Virus record (IMG/VR): IMGVR_UViG_3300049459_000192
Span: 1-55,364 of that record
DNA from: a virus
Direction: 5' to 3' (one strand)
Length of the DNA: 55,364 nt
A program made the translations under genes and the position numbers. Below are positions 1 through 55,253 of this stretch, in pieces (the first letter of the stretch is position 1; each line of letters starts with the position of its first letter). The notes under the pieces are model-generated. The model worked only from the letters and a program-made list of their open reading frames with translations. It searched no databases and was not told the origin of the DNA.

Positions 1-76
1 GGGGCGTAGCGCAGTCCGGTAGCGCACTAGCATGGGGTGCTAGGGGTCGAGTGTTCGAATCACTCCGTCCCGACCA
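1..76 (+). tRNA. tRNA-Pro (anticodon GGG), integration target
   Basis: The sequence folds as a full tRNA. The anticodon stem CTAGC/GCTAG encloses a seven-base loop ATGGGGT whose middle triplet GGG reads proline CCC. The TTCGAAT T-loop is present and the gene ends in an encoded CCA. The 3' acceptor strand CGTCCCG needs a 5' C that is not in the window, so the gene begins one base upstream. It is intact on this side of the prophage; the right end carries only a 3' partial copy. The known role is proline decoding; its 3' half is the attachment site. Confidence 0.95.
29..76 (+). repeat. attL core, 48-bp direct repeat
   Basis: Bases 29-76 (anticodon stem to CCA of the tRNA) are identical to 55206-55253. 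Weak identity continues a little beyond the CCA (TTCAATGACTTAG on both sides). A tRNA 3' half duplicated at both ends of a phage genome with an adjacent tyrosine integrase is the standard sign of site-specific integration. The exact crossover point inside the 48 bp cannot be seen. Confidence 0.92.
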
Positions 77-145: not shown

Positions 146-1324
146 TCATCCAGTTTTCCTTTTCAGTATTGTCAGTACCGGCCCACGTGAGTCTGTTGCT
201 GATACCATATTTGCAGCCTCGATCAGATGCCCGAGTTCAGCGCCCGAGTAGTGACTGGTGATGCTGCCGTTCTTGTGTCCCAGTAAGGCCTTTCGGTCTT
301 CCTGAGTGACACCAGCCGCCCGAAGGCGACGACCAAATGTGTGCTTCAAATCGTGCACCCTGATGGATGCATACCCTGGGTGAGCGGGGCGAAGGTTTTC
401 CTCCTGCCAGAGTTTTGCCGCTCTCACCCGCGCCTTTTTCCAAGCCGAGTCGTTCATGCGATGAAGCGCGTTACCCTTGTAAGGAAATACCCAGTCCTTA
501 CTCAGGCCTCGCTGTTTGTCGATGATCGACTTGGCCACGGTGTTGAGCACCACCAATCGCTCGTCGCCGTTCTTCACGCCTGATCGCTCGTTGCGCCCGC
601 CGAAGTCTGACGGGATCAGGAACACGCTGGTGCCAAGTTCTGGCACCGATATCTCCCAGTCCCACCTCAATTTGCAGACCTCTTGCTCGCGACATCCTGT
701 GTTCACCTTGAACAAGGCCATTGTTTGCAGGTGAGCCGGCAACTCTCCAAAAAGTATCGACTGCTCGTCCCATGTCATGGGGTAGGGCTCGCGAACCTTT
801 TTCTTCAAGTCCAGCTTCGCAAGCATCGGCACCGAATCAAGCCAAGGCCTGCGTTCTTCGTCCCGCCACTTCCTTGCACAAAGCGAAAGAACCCGTATTA
901 CCCGTTCGATTGAGATGTTGATCGTGCGAGGTGCCACCGGCTTTAATTGCTTCCCGCACGGCAACACCATCCCCTTCAAACGATCCTTCACGAACGGCTC
1001 AAGTGCCTGGTCATCGATGTGGGTCAATGGCAGGTCTTTGAGATAAGGGTGCAAATGCTTCAGGTGGTGCGCCGTCAGTTTGATTGACGGCTGATCCTTG
1101 CTCTCAATCAAAAACTTAGTTGCTGCTTCTTCCCAAGTTCGGGTTCGGCGCACGCCATACACCTTTTGCTGCCGAAGCTGCTCAAGGCGATGAATCAGGT
1201 ACTGCTCTGCTTCTTGCCTGTCACCAGTTCCAGTGCTTTCTCGAAGTCGCTCACCTCGGAAAACCTTGTCGATTTGCCAGACTCCACCTTTCTGGTAGAG
1301 ACCGGAGATCGCTTTTCTCGCCAT
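146..1324 (-). CDS. int: Phage integrase, tyrosine recombinase
   Basis: This 392-residue protein catalyses prophage integration, and excision together with an accessory factor. An N-terminal arm-binding and SAM-like region (about 1-170) precedes the catalytic domain. Visible active-site residues are R212 (TGCREQE), H324 (VHDLKHTFG), H350 (LLGHK) and the nucleophile Y359 (SHYSG). The usual second arginine of HxxR is a lysine here (K327). The start is ATG with AGGAGG eight bases upstream. It reads toward the tRNA and stops 70 bp from attL, and its start lies inside the upstream xis-like gene (130-bp overlap). The protein ends in LTILKRK plus two residues, a tail repeated in the second integrase past attR. 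Confidence 0.95.
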   Translation of the reverse strand: MARKAISGLYQKGGVWQIDKVFRGERLRESTGTGDRQEAEQYLIHRLEQLRQQKVYGVRRTRTWEEAATKFLIESKDQPSIKLTAHHLKHLHPYLKDLPLTHIDDQALEPFVKDRLKGMVLPCGKQLKPVAPRTINISIERVIRVLSLCARKWRDEERRPWLDSVPMLAKLDLKKKVREPYPMTWDEQSILFGELPAHLQTMALFKVNTGCREQEVCKLRWDWEISVPELGTSVFLIPSDFGGRNERSGVKNGDERLVVLNTVAKSIIDKQRGLSKDWVFPYKGNALHRMNDSAWKKARVRAAKLWQEENLRPAHPGYASIRVHDLKHTFGRRLRAAGVTQEDRKALLGHKNGSITSHYSGAELGHLIEAANMVSATDSRGPVLTILKRKTG

Positions 1325-46172: not shown

Positions 46173-47213
46173 ATGGAAAAAAACACCAGGTATTCAGGGG
46201 CGGACGGAATCAGGGGCTTTGCGTGCCTGATCGTGGTGTTTGTCCACGCATCTGCAATTTTTTTTAGTGAAACGTATATGCCGCTCGCGGGGACTGGAAA
46301 AATTGGCGTTTGGCTGTTCTTTGTCCTGAGTGCATTTCTGCTTACAAGCAAGTTTGAATCTTCTGGGTTTTCTCCATATCAATTGTTCTCTTACGCGCTT
46401 GGCAGGTTCTTACGAATTATTCCGCTTTTCTCGATAGTTGCTATCCTGTATTACATTTTCGGAACAGCAAAGATCGATACTGTTCAAGACTTGAAGGGGG
46501 CGTTGCTTTTGACGCAAGGCTACGCCCACCTATGGACGATACCCGTTGAGTTTAAGTTTTACTTGGCTCTCCCCGTATTTGCCTTTCTTCTCGTCGCTGC
46601 GAAGCGTGGCGGCGGGCAGGCAGGTGCTGCACTAGCCACAGCGGCTCTGATCGGCATCCAGCAATGGGCATGGCCTTACTGGGAAACACCTGAAAGCAGC
46701 ATATCAACGCATTTCTACTTGTCATGTTTCACAATAGGTTGCTACTGCGCGGTGTCGATGGATTTCTACCGGAAGTACATATCTGGACGAATTGCAACGG
46801 CATTGGCGGTATTTGTTATTGGATGCATGGTTCTCTCTAGTCCGATCATGCGATATCTGTTGCTTGATATGCCAATGGATAAATGGCTGCAAAACAAGTT
46901 CGTGTACTTGAGCGTGTTGTGGGGTGTGTTTATTCTGGCGCTTGCCGATGGCAAAGGAGTGATCGGATCCCTCATGCAATCATCAATGATGAAGAAGATT
47001 GGTGCTTGGAGTTTTTCGATTTACCTCATTCATTGGTACTTCTACATAACGTTCGGCACTGCCCACCCCAATAGCTTGCTTTGGATGGCAATCGGTATTG
47101 CCTGCGCGATTGTCGGTGGAGCAATCTTGCACTACGCAATTGAAGCTCCTATTGAAAAGTTTCGTCATTCGATACAGAAGCGCATTCGACCGCCGGTTAC
47201 AGTTCCTGCCTAA
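46173..47213 (+). CDS. Acyltransferase 3 family protein (O-antigen acetylase type)
   Basis: The product has 346 residues; ATG follows GGGCGG. Many hydrophobic segments (about 10) span the protein. The N-terminal YSGADGIRGFACLIVVFVHAS has the conserved R and H; a GRFLRIIPLF segment follows. The family adds acetyl groups to O-antigen in the inner membrane. In prophages beside tail fibre genes it changes the serotype and shuts out phages with the same receptor. Confidence 0.8.
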   Translation: MEKNTRYSGADGIRGFACLIVVFVHASAIFFSETYMPLAGTGKIGVWLFFVLSAFLLTSKFESSGFSPYQLFSYALGRFLRIIPLFSIVAILYYIFGTAKIDTVQDLKGALLLTQGYAHLWTIPVEFKFYLALPVFAFLLVAAKRGGGQAGAALATAALIGIQQWAWPYWETPESSISTHFYLSCFTIGCYCAVSMDFYRKYISGRIATALAVFVIGCMVLSSPIMRYLLLDMPMDKWLQNKFVYLSVLWGVFILALADGKGVIGSLMQSSMMKKIGAWSFSIYLIHWYFYITFGTAHPNSLLWMAIGIACAIVGGAILHYAIEAPIEKFRHSIQKRIRPPVTVPA

Positions 47214-49994: not shown

Positions 49995-50117
49995 CGAGCG
50001 GCATTTATCGACCGATTGTGTTGAAAAAATCGCCCCGGCCTGGCTAGCCATTTATCGAGCGGTGAGAACACATCTTTTGCACATACCACGTTAGATCTGA
50101 GCCCTGAACCTTGTGCG

Positions 50118-50170
50118 CAAAGCACGGATTTCAATCTTAGACGCGCACTTTTCTGCCATGGAAACCAAGC
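50118..50170 (+). repeat. Left arm of inverted repeat around the HNH-Ntn pair
   Basis: This 53-bp stretch (containing GGATTTCAATC and TTCTGCCATGG) is an imperfect reverse complement of 52882-52933, with about seven differences by eye. The arms enclose 2.7 kb with two genes. Confidence 0.6.
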
Positions 50171-50559
50171 TCTACGACGTTCCGACCTACAACCCGCGCA
50201 GTAGCATTCAAGCGTCGAAATACCGCATGCCAATCATATATTGCGACCATCACCGTCCGCAATCCAGAACGCCGCTTCGGCCAAAATGAAAAGCCCCGCT
50301 ATAAAAAGCGCGCTGTAGGGTTTGGATGTCTGGACTAGATTGTCGTTTTATACACGCTAGTGTCGCTTATATGGGGGAAGTGTCTGGTGCTATCCTGAAT
50401 ATTATTTTTGAGAGCGTAAGCTGCTGGTTAATAGTTGCTTTTTATAACTTGCAGTTTCTTATAGTGGTATGTAGTGGGGTTCGGCGTATAGCTGGTCGTT
50501 CATGGATTGAGCTCGGCGCCGGTTAAAAGGTCGGAACCAATCGAAAATAAGTTCGGGAT

Positions 50560-51546
50560 TCAGTCGTTGGCTAGTGGTTCTGGAGCAAACTCCAAGCCTA
50601 GCTCTTTAATTCTATTGAGTATTTCCGTTGGTATCTCCTCGAGAGGAGGGGATGTCCATTTTTGCGTCGTTTGCATATAGGCTTTATCTACGATCCTTGT
50701 TGTTGCTTTTCTAGTTAGATCAAGATTCTCTGTTTGAGCTTTAGCTGCTTGTCTTGGTAGCATTCCTTCAATAAAAGGGAATGTCAGTAATTTTGAGTTT
50801 TTCCAGTCGACAATTTTGTCTTTTGATCCGAAAGGTATTATGAAATTAAATATTAAATTATAGAATGCGATGTTGCAAATCATGTGGGGGAATCGCTTTT
50901 TGTCACCTGTTCTTTTGAATAACTGGATCCATATTGCTGGGAATGGCTTGTGCCCGGGTACAAAAGTTCTGCTTATTTTTAAAGCATTTGAATCAAATTT
51001 GGCTGGCTTCTTGTTGAGTCGTACCCACTCGATACATTGCTTGTATCCCTTTAGTTCTGCTTCGGGCATTATAGAAAGGGCCATTTTCACAAAGCACTTA
51101 TATACCTGCTCGGGTATATATGGTTTGGTTTCTGTTTTTATAGTGAGTAACCCTGAGCTCTCGTCAAGTACGGTCAAGTCAGAGTCCTGAGTCTCTAGAA
51201 TGACCAGGCTGTTTCCGATCATTTCCACGCGCTCGCCGGACTTGGATTTGAATTTTGGCGTACCCTTCTTACTCTCGAATCTAGTAGTAGTTCTTGAAAT
51301 CCCTAAAAAATTAGCGAGGTGGTTTTCCAGGTGCTTGTCAAAGTATTCGTTGCATGTGTTGCATTCATCTCTAGAGAAAAGTAGTTTGTTTCCTATAAGT
51401 TCAGGTAAAGAATGCGCCTCTTTGCTGAATTTTACTTCCGGCTCCCGCTTTCCGCAGTATCGGCAATGTCCGTTTTCCCCAACAAAGTGCCTTTTGTTTA
51501 ATATGATCATCTTGGCCGGCTTGTAGTTGTTCGCGAATTCAATCAA
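50560..51546 (-). CDS. HNH-type nuclease of the cargo pair
   Basis: The product has 328 residues. The preferred start is TTG 51546 with AGAGGA eight bases upstream; an earlier TTG (51570) lacks a site. Near the N-terminus, CRYCG, then AHSLPELIGNK, then CNTC and a NEYFDKHLENHLA helix have the zinc and His/Asn layout of HNH nucleases. The remaining 240 residues carry no known domain and could recognise a target. It is strongly AT-rich. The upstream same-strand gene encodes an N-terminal-nucleophile hydrolase-like protein, so a two-gene defence module is plausible. Confidence 0.65.
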   Translation of the reverse strand: MIEFANNYKPAKMIILNKRHFVGENGHCRYCGKREPEVKFSKEAHSLPELIGNKLLFSRDECNTCNEYFDKHLENHLANFLGISRTTTRFESKKGTPKFKSKSGERVEMIGNSLVILETQDSDLTVLDESSGLLTIKTETKPYIPEQVYKCFVKMALSIMPEAELKGYKQCIEWVRLNKKPAKFDSNALKISRTFVPGHKPFPAIWIQLFKRTGDKKRFPHMICNIAFYNLIFNFIIPFGSKDKIVDWKNSKLLTFPFIEGMLPRQAAKAQTENLDLTRKATTRIVDKAYMQTTQKWTSPPLEEIPTEILNRIKELGLEFAPEPLAND

Positions 51547-51822
51547 CTTAAAATTCCTCTGTATTTTCAAGTGCGTTGCAATTAAATGTCATAAATTTCG
51601 GCTGCCGAAAGCAGCATCTGGTAAATTAAACATGCCGAGCATATAGCTTCAGTAAATAAGAGGTGCTGCTTGGTATCGCTACGTTTAGAGATGGCTGATG
51701 GCTGTTCCACGCAGCGGTCTGTTTGCAGTCCATGGCAGTAAATAAAGTTTTTCTCCAATGCTTTGGTTCAATTTCAACATCATCCGGACACAACATCAGA
51801 GCGCCTCAGGCCCTAGTTGATT

Positions 51823-52632
51823 CTACTTATTGATGGTCGGACGCGGTTGGCGCTGCGCATTCTTTTTAGGTTGAAGTGTTATTGGGTCACATCTCTCAAA
51901 TAACTCATTGTGCCATTCAATACCTGCAGGATATTTTCCAGCTTGGATTGGGGAACCGGAAATGTATTTTTCGCCCTTCAAGACGACCCCGATCATTCTT
52001 GGAGGGCCGACTCGGTACAAGCCGATTAGCTGCGGAGATCCGCCACTAAGTGGATCCTCACCGCTGGAAAGAGAATCGCAGAATGCGCCAAAAACACTTC
52101 TGCTGGTGTCTGTGATATCTGATTTTTTCCACCGATAGTACCAATTTGAGAGTGGTTTTTTTCCGGATCCAGAGCTTCGAATTAGACCTGATATAGCGGG
52201 TATATTAAGTGCTTCTTCATCAATATCTCCCTGTCCTGACCAAGAAATAATGCCTATATGAAACTGAGACTTCATTCCGCTTCCTGATCTAGAGATGTAT
52301 TGAATCTCAAAACTCTCTCTGGCATTTCGAGGGTAAGACGAGAAACTCTCTGAAATAAACTCCCTAACGATTTCGAGCTTTTCCTCAAAAACCATTTCGC
52401 TTGATAGCACATGCTCGAAATCTATTTTGTTGCATAGTTTGTCTAGCATCTGGGCTGGAAACAGGACGTCACCACAAAAGCCAAAAACCTCGGGGTATTT
52501 GGTTGAGGCGTAAAGTTTTTTTCCGACGTCCCAATTTTTTTTATCGAACCAAGTGAATCTGCTGTCGCTGGCCAGATAAATTGCGGACGGTTGTCGTTGA
52601 TCGACAGCAACCCAAGAAATCAGCGTTGTCAT
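51823..52632 (-). CDS. Proteasome-like N-terminal-nucleophile hydrolase
   Basis: The product has 269 residues. ATG 52632 follows GTGGAAG; open frame upstream has no site. It begins MTTLISWVAVD and continues IYLASDSRFTW, VGKKLYAS and PEVFGFCGD. A threonine right after Met, an 'ASDSR' turn, a Lys about 35 residues on and a GxxGD turn recall the proteasome beta/HslV/Anbu fold, where the exposed Thr is the nucleophile. It has no partner ATPase gene nearby. Protease activity is inferred from the pattern; a Thr-first arrangement at positions 2 and 3 is what is seen. Confidence 0.6.
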   Translation of the reverse strand: MTTLISWVAVDQRQPSAIYLASDSRFTWFDKKNWDVGKKLYASTKYPEVFGFCGDVLFPAQMLDKLCNKIDFEHVLSSEMVFEEKLEIVREFISESFSSYPRNARESFEIQYISRSGSGMKSQFHIGIISWSGQGDIDEEALNIPAISGLIRSSGSGKKPLSNWYYRWKKSDITDTSRSVFGAFCDSLSSGEDPLSGGSPQLIGLYRVGPPRMIGVVLKGEKYISGSPIQAGKYPAGIEWHNELFERCDPITLQPKKNAQRQPRPTINK

Positions 52633-52725
52633 GGCTTCCACTGCTTGTTTTTTGTGTATCATACGTCCTAATGGCAATTTGCCTCAACAAGCAACTCCCA
52701 GGCCCTCCACCAATAAATTTCGACG

Positions 52726-52766
52726 GGGGGTGAGGTCGGAGGACCTATCCCCCGGGAAACCGGGGG
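52726..52766 (+). other. Two mutually exclusive hairpins upstream of the Ntn-like gene
   Basis: CCCCCGG-GAAA-CCGGGGG (52749-52766) forms a GNRA-loop hairpin. Upstream GGGGG-TGA-GGTC (52726-52737) can pair with GACC-TAT-CCCCC (52742-52753), sharing the same C run. Only one can form at a time. It lies about 100 bp from the divergent gene start at 52632. Confidence 0.4.
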
Positions 52767-52881
52767 ATGGCTGGGTCCGTTTAAAGATCGAAATCTGTTC
52801 CCCTTCTACTTTGTGAATCGCTCCTGGTTTAGTAGCTACTTCTCATTGAGTGCTTCTGGCCGATGCTGTTGAAAAAGTCGG

Positions 52882-52933
52882 GCTTAGTTCCCATGGCAGA
52901 AAGTACACGTCTGAGATTGAAATCCTTGCTTTC
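52882..52933 (-). repeat. Right arm of inverted repeat around the HNH-Ntn pair
   Basis: It is the reverse-complement counterpart of 50118-50170. The adjacent TGTTGAAAAAGTCG (52867-52880) is repeated in direct orientation at 50019, so the border is a mosaic. Confidence 0.6.
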
Positions 52934-52976
52934 AGCGGAGGCCTCCCGGAGTCACTGTTGAAGCCGTTTGCGAAGG

Positions 52977-53092: not shown

Positions 53093-54709
53093 TTAACGGC
53101 AGCAGTGCTTGTACTTCTTCTTCGAGCCGCAGGGGCATCGCTCGTTACGGCCTACCGGCGACCCAACGTAGGCGCGCTGGGGCGGTTTGGTTACGATGGG
53201 GGTGGGAGGAACCACTTTTTGAAACGCGAGGTGGGGGTATGTTTTAGCTAGGGCTACGTCCATCTTCTCCCAGATATACGTAGCAAGCCTTCTACATGCT
53301 GAAAGCAGATTCTTATGTTGTGACGTATTGGTAATTTCATCCTGGCAATTAGTAATGTGCGTCAATGCCGAGTGAAGTGCGTCTAGATTGTCTGCCTGCT
53401 TCACTAGGCTATGAGCAAGCGCGTACCGGGCTTTTATACGAGTGTTCTCGCTTCGTATGCATTCTTCATAAAGAGCCTGAGCATCAATGTCGGTTCGGCC
53501 CGGAATGAGCTTTTGACTGATTAGTCCGGCGAACTCAAGCATGGCTTCTGGATATTTTTGCTCCGCCGCTTCGATTAGCCAGGCGACAGCTCTCGGGCGC
53601 TCATTGGCAAAAGCGTGACCTTGATGATGCAGCATGTACAAATGAAACTGCGCCTGCGGAAATCCTGCCTCTGCAGACTGTAGAGAGCATTCGAATGCAG
53701 CAATGAAGTCTATCGCGCCGCCGAGACCCTGCTCATGCATTTTCGCCAACTGCGCAAGTGCTCCGGGGTGAGACTGAGAGGCAGCCTGTTGATACAGGTA
53801 TCGTGCGTATTCTAGATCTTGCTCGTATCGAGCCGACCCCCAAAAATGGCAGTCGCCAATGAAAGCCAAAGCATCAGCAAGGTCTCTACCGCTTGCCCGC
53901 CAAACCCAATATTCACCCTCTTGGCGTTTACCTTGAAATTCCTCGCCTTGGAGACGCGCGAGGTAAACTCCGTACTCATACATTGCCTCGACATGCGAAC
54001 TGTCGGCGGCAAATTTGAACCAGATATTGGCCTGATCAATGAATTTACGGGAGTCGAAACCGTAACTGTCATCAGCTCTGAAAATAACTTCCGAGGTTTT
54101 CATGGCATTAGCTTTTTCTTTGAAATAAATTCCTAGTGTGTAGCGTGCATCAGCATCTTCCTCGAAAACCGCGCGGTAGCTAAGTTCGCGAAGGTTGTGT
54201 TGTGTAAGTGGTGCGATGGTGTATTTAGGAGCCTCACCGAACTTAGGATTCAAGGAATGAAGATACTCAAGCAAGTCGAGGGCAGAGGACAGCGCCTGCC
54301 CCAGCATTTCTGAGTATTCATGGGACTTAAAGCTAAATGCCTTAGGGTGAGCTGCAATATTCCCATTTTTCTGTAGGACGCGGAGCCAGTTCAGCACGTT
54401 GTGGTCTACCAGCCGCCTATCTCGCAAGTACGCAATCTTGCGGTCCAGATTCAGATCTCTGTACATATTCGGGACTAGCGTTTCGCAGAACTCGTTGGCA
54501 AAGCTTCGCAGTAAGGTAACAGCATAACCCGGCGTTGAAGCACCTTGATTCTTTGCGTGCTCGTACAGGTCGCCCAGTTGAGGAGAGACGCTGTGCGCAA
54601 ACTCAATGTCGTTCATCATATGGCCGTAATTACGTAGGGATTTCCAGAAAATGTCACCTATCCGGATCGGGGCATGAGAAAGCGACTTGGAAAAAACACC
54701 TTGACGCAT
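53093..54709 (-). CDS. DUF4145, Sel1-repeat and SEC-C protein
   Basis: The product has up to 538 residues; Met codons at 54619/54616 are alternative starts because MNDIEFAHSVSPQLGDLYEHA is a usual DUF4145 opening. An N-terminal helical domain (about 32-160, RLVDHNVLNWLRVLQKNGN, then AAHPKA) is of the DUF4145 kind often met in restriction enzymes. Sel1-like repeats follow (about 230-440: GALAQLAKMHEQGLGG, AQFHLYMLHHQGHAF) as a protein-binding scaffold. The C-terminus is a SEC-C zinc motif (NERCPCGSKKKYKHCC). It lies near attR, a usual cargo site; a defence role is inferred. Confidence 0.75.
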   Translation of the reverse strand: MRQGVFSKSLSHAPIRIGDIFWKSLRNYGHMMNDIEFAHSVSPQLGDLYEHAKNQGASTPGYAVTLLRSFANEFCETLVPNMYRDLNLDRKIAYLRDRRLVDHNVLNWLRVLQKNGNIAAHPKAFSFKSHEYSEMLGQALSSALDLLEYLHSLNPKFGEAPKYTIAPLTQHNLRELSYRAVFEEDADARYTLGIYFKEKANAMKTSEVIFRADDSYGFDSRKFIDQANIWFKFAADSSHVEAMYEYGVYLARLQGEEFQGKRQEGEYWVWRASGRDLADALAFIGDCHFWGSARYEQDLEYARYLYQQAASQSHPGALAQLAKMHEQGLGGAIDFIAAFECSLQSAEAGFPQAQFHLYMLHHQGHAFANERPRAVAWLIEAAEQKYPEAMLEFAGLISQKLIPGRTDIDAQALYEECIRSENTRIKARYALAHSLVKQADNLDALHSALTHITNCQDEITNTSQHKNLLSACRRLATYIWEKMDVALAKTYPHLAFQKVVPPTPIVTKPPQRAYVGSPVGRNERCPCGSKKKYKHCCR

Positions 54710-55205: not shown

Positions 55206-55253
55206 AGCATGGGGTGCTAGGGGTCGAGTGTTCGAATCACTCCGTCCCGACCA
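55206..55253 (+). repeat. attR core, partial tRNA-Pro 3' end
   Basis: This is the second copy of the 48-bp repeat at 29-76. The 5' half of the tRNA is absent, so this copy cannot encode tRNA. It marks the right end of the prophage and also serves as the left border of whatever follows. Confidence 0.92.

Follow-up and report, generated by a model that had tools for sequence, protein, structure and literature searches.

A solitary proteasome-like hydrolase and an HNH nuclease as probably independent cargo of a Pseudomonas prophage

Two neighboring AT-rich genes close to one end of a viral DNA record raise the question of whether they work as a pair or were brought to the same place separately. 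The record (IMG/VR IMGVR_UViG_3300049459_000192) was analyzed over its whole length of 55,364 nucleotides, referred to here as the window. An earlier note, made from the sequence alone, had described an unusual pair comprising an HNH-type nuclease and a proteasome-type Thr-nucleophile hydrolase of the Ntn type, enclosed by imperfect inverted repeats, and had suggested, as one reading, that the nuclease is controlled by proteolysis within this repeat-bounded unit. Both open reading frames are present on the minus strand, with the Ntn gene (51823..52632; 269 aa, N-terminus MTTLISW) upstream and the HNH gene (50560..51570; 336 aa) downstream. Their GC contents of 44% and 41%, respectively, compared to 55-60% in most of the prophage structural genes, agree with the description of two same-strand AT-rich genes, and the intergenic gap was recounted as 252 nt instead of 276 bp. 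The Ntn gene has an alternative TTG start at 52677 that would add 15 codons to the 269 aa counted from the ATG, which is unlikely given the GGAAG motif 5' of the ATG and the M-[TS] start common to all relatives. Promoter and terminator scans gave results near chance level, and no Rfam match was found in the stretch downstream of the Ntn gene.

The window is a Pseudomonas prophage that has inserted into a tRNA gene. A complete tRNA gene at the left end (1..76, plus strand) forms attL, and an exact 22-nt repeat, TCGAATCACTCCGTCCCGACCA, is found at 55-76 and again at 55232-55253 (0 expected), where the copy of the tRNA 3' end marks attR (plus strand). Judged by eye, the gene appears to encode tRNA-Pro; it was not called by ARAGORN. 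Adjoining attL is an open reading frame (146..1324, minus strand) assigned as integrase-like from its sequence and position, and the structural genes lie between it and the cargo end of the window. Accessory genes are usual in the attR-proximal cargo of prophages, and this zone, outside the structural operon, is where both the Ntn and HNH genes are found. The window also encodes a 538-aa protein (53093-54709, minus strand) that combines an N-terminal DUF4145 with Sel1 repeats and a SEC-C motif at the C-terminus and gave weak PADLOC matches (PDC-M16A, E 5e-8), and an acyltransferase-like membrane protein (46173-47213, plus strand) that is possibly, judging by sequence only, a lysogenic-conversion gene.

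AlphaFold 2 was used to model the Ntn protein from 41 sequences, producing a confident model (pLDDT 94.7, pTM 0.92) whose top PDB matches were 20S proteasome beta subunits and HslV (E 1e-8, probability 1.0). All 50 of the PDB matches listed were proteasome (20S subunits) or HslV structures, so that the protein is clearly predicted to have the proteasome-type alpha-beta-beta-alpha (Ntn) fold, as had been suspected from its N-terminus. Searches with the sequence itself returned no family match in Pfam, NCBIfam, PADLOC or PHROG, scattered weak matches when the 41 members were scanned against Pfam, and a marginal 20S beta match (E 1.1) when the sequence profile was compared to the PDB. Aligned by motif and spacing, as opposed to superposition, T2, D23, R25, K39 and G54 are the counterparts of proteasome Thr1, Asp17, Arg19, Lys33 and Gly47. 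These residues are kept in 40 to 41 of the 41 aligned sequences, with D23, K39 and G54 invariant (41/41) and the residue after the initial Met being Thr in 40/41 and Ser in 1/41. Since the genome scan for relatives used the N-terminal motifs MTTL[IL]SW.. or [LIV]ASDSR[FI][TS]W, residues within them are to some degree conserved by design, which does not apply to K39, G54 or the later motifs. Among the later motifs, GSG/GTG occupies positions 155-157, D193 is found in 36/41 sequences and G197-G198 are nearly invariant, while the equivalent of Ser169 varies across the family.

Compared with 20S beta and HslV, the Ntn protein carries its GSG and D-x-x-S-G-G motifs in equivalent positions and has the proteasome's D-to-K spacing of 16, at a sequence identity of 10-17%. 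Unlike these systems, it has no propeptide (the gene begins M-T), its gene stands beside no alpha subunit, HslU or other unfoldase, and it is extended at the C-terminus by a segment that includes a conserved A-Q-R-Q-P motif. Comparable proteins make up the 22 uncharacterised proteasome-like subfamilies, reported with no functional context or conserved gene context, whose members lack a propeptide and occur sporadically in bacteria and in some phages (Fuchs, Alva and Lupas 2021, PMC8665760). The Ntn family resembles them in having no propeptide, a scattered distribution that includes some phages, and no conserved gene context. In its model, only short loops are seen at the two sites (after H1/H2 and between H3/H4) where insertions characterise most PMI types of that study. 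Following removal of the Met, Thr2 would become the N-terminal nucleophile, with Asp23 and Lys39 completing the triad and Gly54 forming the oxyanion hole. Without a propeptide or dedicated unfoldase, the protein would probably assemble as a homo-oligomer and may act as a selective protease or protein-modifying enzyme.

The second protein matches Pfam HNH_5 (PF14279) with 34.9 bits, above the gathering cut-off of 27.5 (E 1.4e-8), as well as phrog_26663 (E 2.2e-46), in agreement with its description as an HNH-type nuclease. Seven residues (C36, C39, H53, N61, C70, C73 and N74) are invariant among 13 to 15 relatives and fit a putative zinc-bound HNH site, and the CxxC, A-H-x-x-P-E-x-L-G-N and C-x-x-C-N motifs are common to HNH_5 endonucleases, which likewise occur in prophages and plasmids. 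A difference from these endonucleases lies in the C-terminal ~240 aa, a domain of unknown fold that matches no solved structure; the model of the whole protein was only fair (pLDDT 79) and gave no PDB match at E <= 0.001. Relatives of the HNH gene are stand-alone genes in plasmids, prophages and satellites, and the closest (85% identity) adjoins a Drt4 reverse transcriptase (E 8e-223) and a GmrSD_N/HEPN gene pair. A satellite-like Pseudomonas island (L077:2892-8353) contains GmrSD_N and HEPN genes, a copy of the repeat element described below, Drt4, an HNH gene and a large primase-like gene. The window protein may be pictured as a stand-alone HNH DNase whose C-terminal domain serves in sensing or binding.

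The repeats around the two genes are real, with one inverted segment of 33 nt (88% complementary) and one of 26 nt (85%), an outer inverted pair of 45 nt at 78%, and a BLAST alignment of 52 bp at 86.5% identity (E 8e-9) that is far beyond chance. The earlier mention of dispersed repeats was also right. The repeat is a MITE-like element common in Pseudomonas. Alignment with intact copies and BLAST to plasmid and genome copies delimited a left copy at 50012..50175 (plus strand), whose right terminal inverted repeat has decayed, and a right copy in the opposite orientation at 52851..52949 (minus strand), of which only the right-hand ~100 bp is recognisable (81-84% identity to copies in L077 and plasmid L008). 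Both align with ~184-bp elements of Pseudomonas and Stutzerimonas plasmids and genomes; matches, some of them to the ends only, were found in 18 of 40 Pseudomonas genomes, with up to about 20 in one genome. The terminal repeat of the ~184-bp element, TCTGTTGAAAAAGTCGG, also bounds an insertion sequence (L111:4696-6297) whose transposase is 26% identical over 276 aa to an annotated IS1182-family transposase (E 2e-13) and has a relative with a DUF772 domain. Short, dispersed and sharing its ends with a transposase-bearing element, the repeat is an IS1182-type-derived MITE; unlike IS1182-type insertion sequences, the window has no transposase and its copies are decayed. Tn3-derived miniature elements (TIMEs, PMC4133298) had also been considered and were set aside once the IS1182-type ends were found.

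Two inverted copies around the Ntn and HNH genes could form a mobile insertion cassette that moves the enclosed genes together, and similar arrangements exist elsewhere: on plasmid L008 (3017-5720), two near-identical inverted copies surround two other, hypothetical genes, and in Pseudomonas genome G320 a copy lies 2.2 kb from the HNH relative. However, neither window copy has kept an intact outer terminal repeat, each being truncated or decayed at its ends, the Ntn relative at locus L012 has no copy in the homologous stretch, and the element is so common in Pseudomonas that flanking by chance is plausible. Because the right end of the left copy and the left half of the right copy are gone, the window copies are relics and not working cassette ends, and joint movement of the two genes by this route is doubtful. 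Along two Pseudomonas islands (L111 and L112; G027:C12 and G046:C43) copies of the ~184-bp repeat are spaced a few kb apart with varied genes between, and in the latter locus (L112:3948-5540) a single open frame fuses the N-terminus of an IS1182-type transposase (DUF772) to a complete GGDEF-EAL protein. At another locus (L004:3352-5672), an IS1182-family transposase sits just upstream of an N-terminally incomplete, apparently disrupted Ntn homologue.

The Ntn family is widespread, unnamed and unstudied, and is represented by no Pfam, NCBIfam, PHROG or PADLOC model. Relatives were found on 6 plasmids, 2 viral (IMG/VR) contigs and in 45 genomes. They span about nine bacterial phyla (Pseudomonadota, Actinomycetota, Bacteroidota, Cyanobacteriota, Acidobacteriota, Chloroflexota, Gemmatimonadota, Omnitrophota and Campylobacterota). 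Clustering of the neighbors of 52 loci identified no gene common to more than 2 to 3 of them, and a conserved partner gene was rejected on this basis. Two Ntn loci (L007:5850-6665 and L013:6832-7653) have a downstream gene in common (271-274 aa, gap 0-12 nt), for which no Pfam or PADLOC match was found at L007. A gap of ~200 nt downstream of the Ntn gene in three plasmids was attributed to chance, as the genes beyond it are unrelated and the window has no Rfam match there.

Defense genes are mildly enriched near the Ntn gene. PADLOC matches (E <= 1e-20) were counted for about 13 of 129 Ntn neighbors, by our own reading among the matches listed (anywhere from 11 to 15 is possible), compared to 2 of 83 control proteins drawn from arbitrary parts of these genomes (Fisher P about 0.03, computed for 13). 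The types represented include reverse transcriptase systems, AbiO/Nhi, PD-T7-1, PD-T7-5, type I methyltransferase and CARF-RtcR, among others. Because the controls came from ordinary chromosome, the signal may reflect no more than accessory DNA; the modest enrichment suggests a defense-type role for the family and sets it apart from the homologues of PMC8665760, for which no functional context is reported. The main text of the DefensePredictor paper (PMC13092281) makes no mention of proteasome or Ntn proteins. That the solitary, propeptide-less hydrolase is a single-gene effector of anti-phage or inter-element conflict, carried on prophages, plasmids and islands across about nine phyla, is put forward tentatively. 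It is unlikely that the gene serves phage propagation, for example as an anti-defense or capsid-maturation protease, and is not cellular defense cargo. The gene does sit in prophages (the window and L006/L012), and other proteasome-like proteins are known from phage genomes (PMC8665760; viral fold matches). However, a search of 50,697 phage records gave no Ntn match and IMG/VR contigs yielded only 2, most relatives belong to bacterial genomes or plasmids where linkage to phage genes is not evident, and the window copy is located outside the structural operon.

Whether the Ntn and HNH genes travel together was assessed in every collection searched, and nowhere were their homologues found together, the outcome that the earlier note had named as speaking against the pair. 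At none of the 51 other Ntn loci, mostly covered with flanks of up to 5-6 kb, did BLAST or profile searches detect an HNH gene, and the HNH profile, run against 595 proteins of 52 Ntn loci, matched only the window's own HNH protein. Since L006 and L012 probably represent one locus, independent counts are slightly lower. Conversely, the Ntn profile produced zero matches at 31 HNH loci in 30 distinct places (flanks of 1.3-4 kb or more). The 6 Ntn and 92 HNH plasmids share neither genus nor record, and sampling of 299 Pseudomonas genomes found the Ntn gene in 2, the HNH gene in 7 and both in none; because the loci were collected with narrow motifs, these counts could miss rare co-occurring pairs. 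Even a weak HNH match was present in only 1 of 25 Ntn genomes. The closest relatives are likewise single, with a 77% identical Ntn protein in genome G001 lacking the HNH gene and the 85% HNH relative in G320 lacking the Ntn gene. DNA homology to each relative ends near the gene borders (51839-52791 to L012 on the Ntn side; 50537-51598 to L077 on the HNH side), which identifies the two genes as separate units. The stretch between them (51599..51822), homologous to neither relative locus, is where the two cargo units meet. A recently assembled two-gene defense module, in which the protease activates or restrains the nuclease, would be in keeping with adjacent, same-strand, low-GC genes inside inverted repeats, and is strongly disfavored and very improbable, as no other locus pairs the two genes, their near relatives are single and DNA homology breaks between them.

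The genes, protein types and repeats described in the earlier note are confirmed, and its reading of them as a proteolytically controlled nuclease unit is not supported by these results. Most likely, the two genes are independent mobile cargo and not a two-part system, each probably a stand-alone accessory gene with a defense-type role. Taken as a whole, the locus is with good confidence explained as attR-proximal cargo of a tRNA-integrated prophage, in which two unrelated single-gene modules, each probably anti-phage, lie among decayed IS-derived MITE-like copies. Each would then separately serve conflict between mobile elements.

Overall, the reported nuclease-protease pair is best set aside, and what is worth keeping is a one-gene, propeptide-less proteasome-type active site that moves between very different bacteria. 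Should the Ntn protein act alone in phage defense, bacterial immunity would gain a proteasome-fold enzyme; if not, the family would still offer a compact setting for studying the function of a proteasome-like subunit that has no partners.
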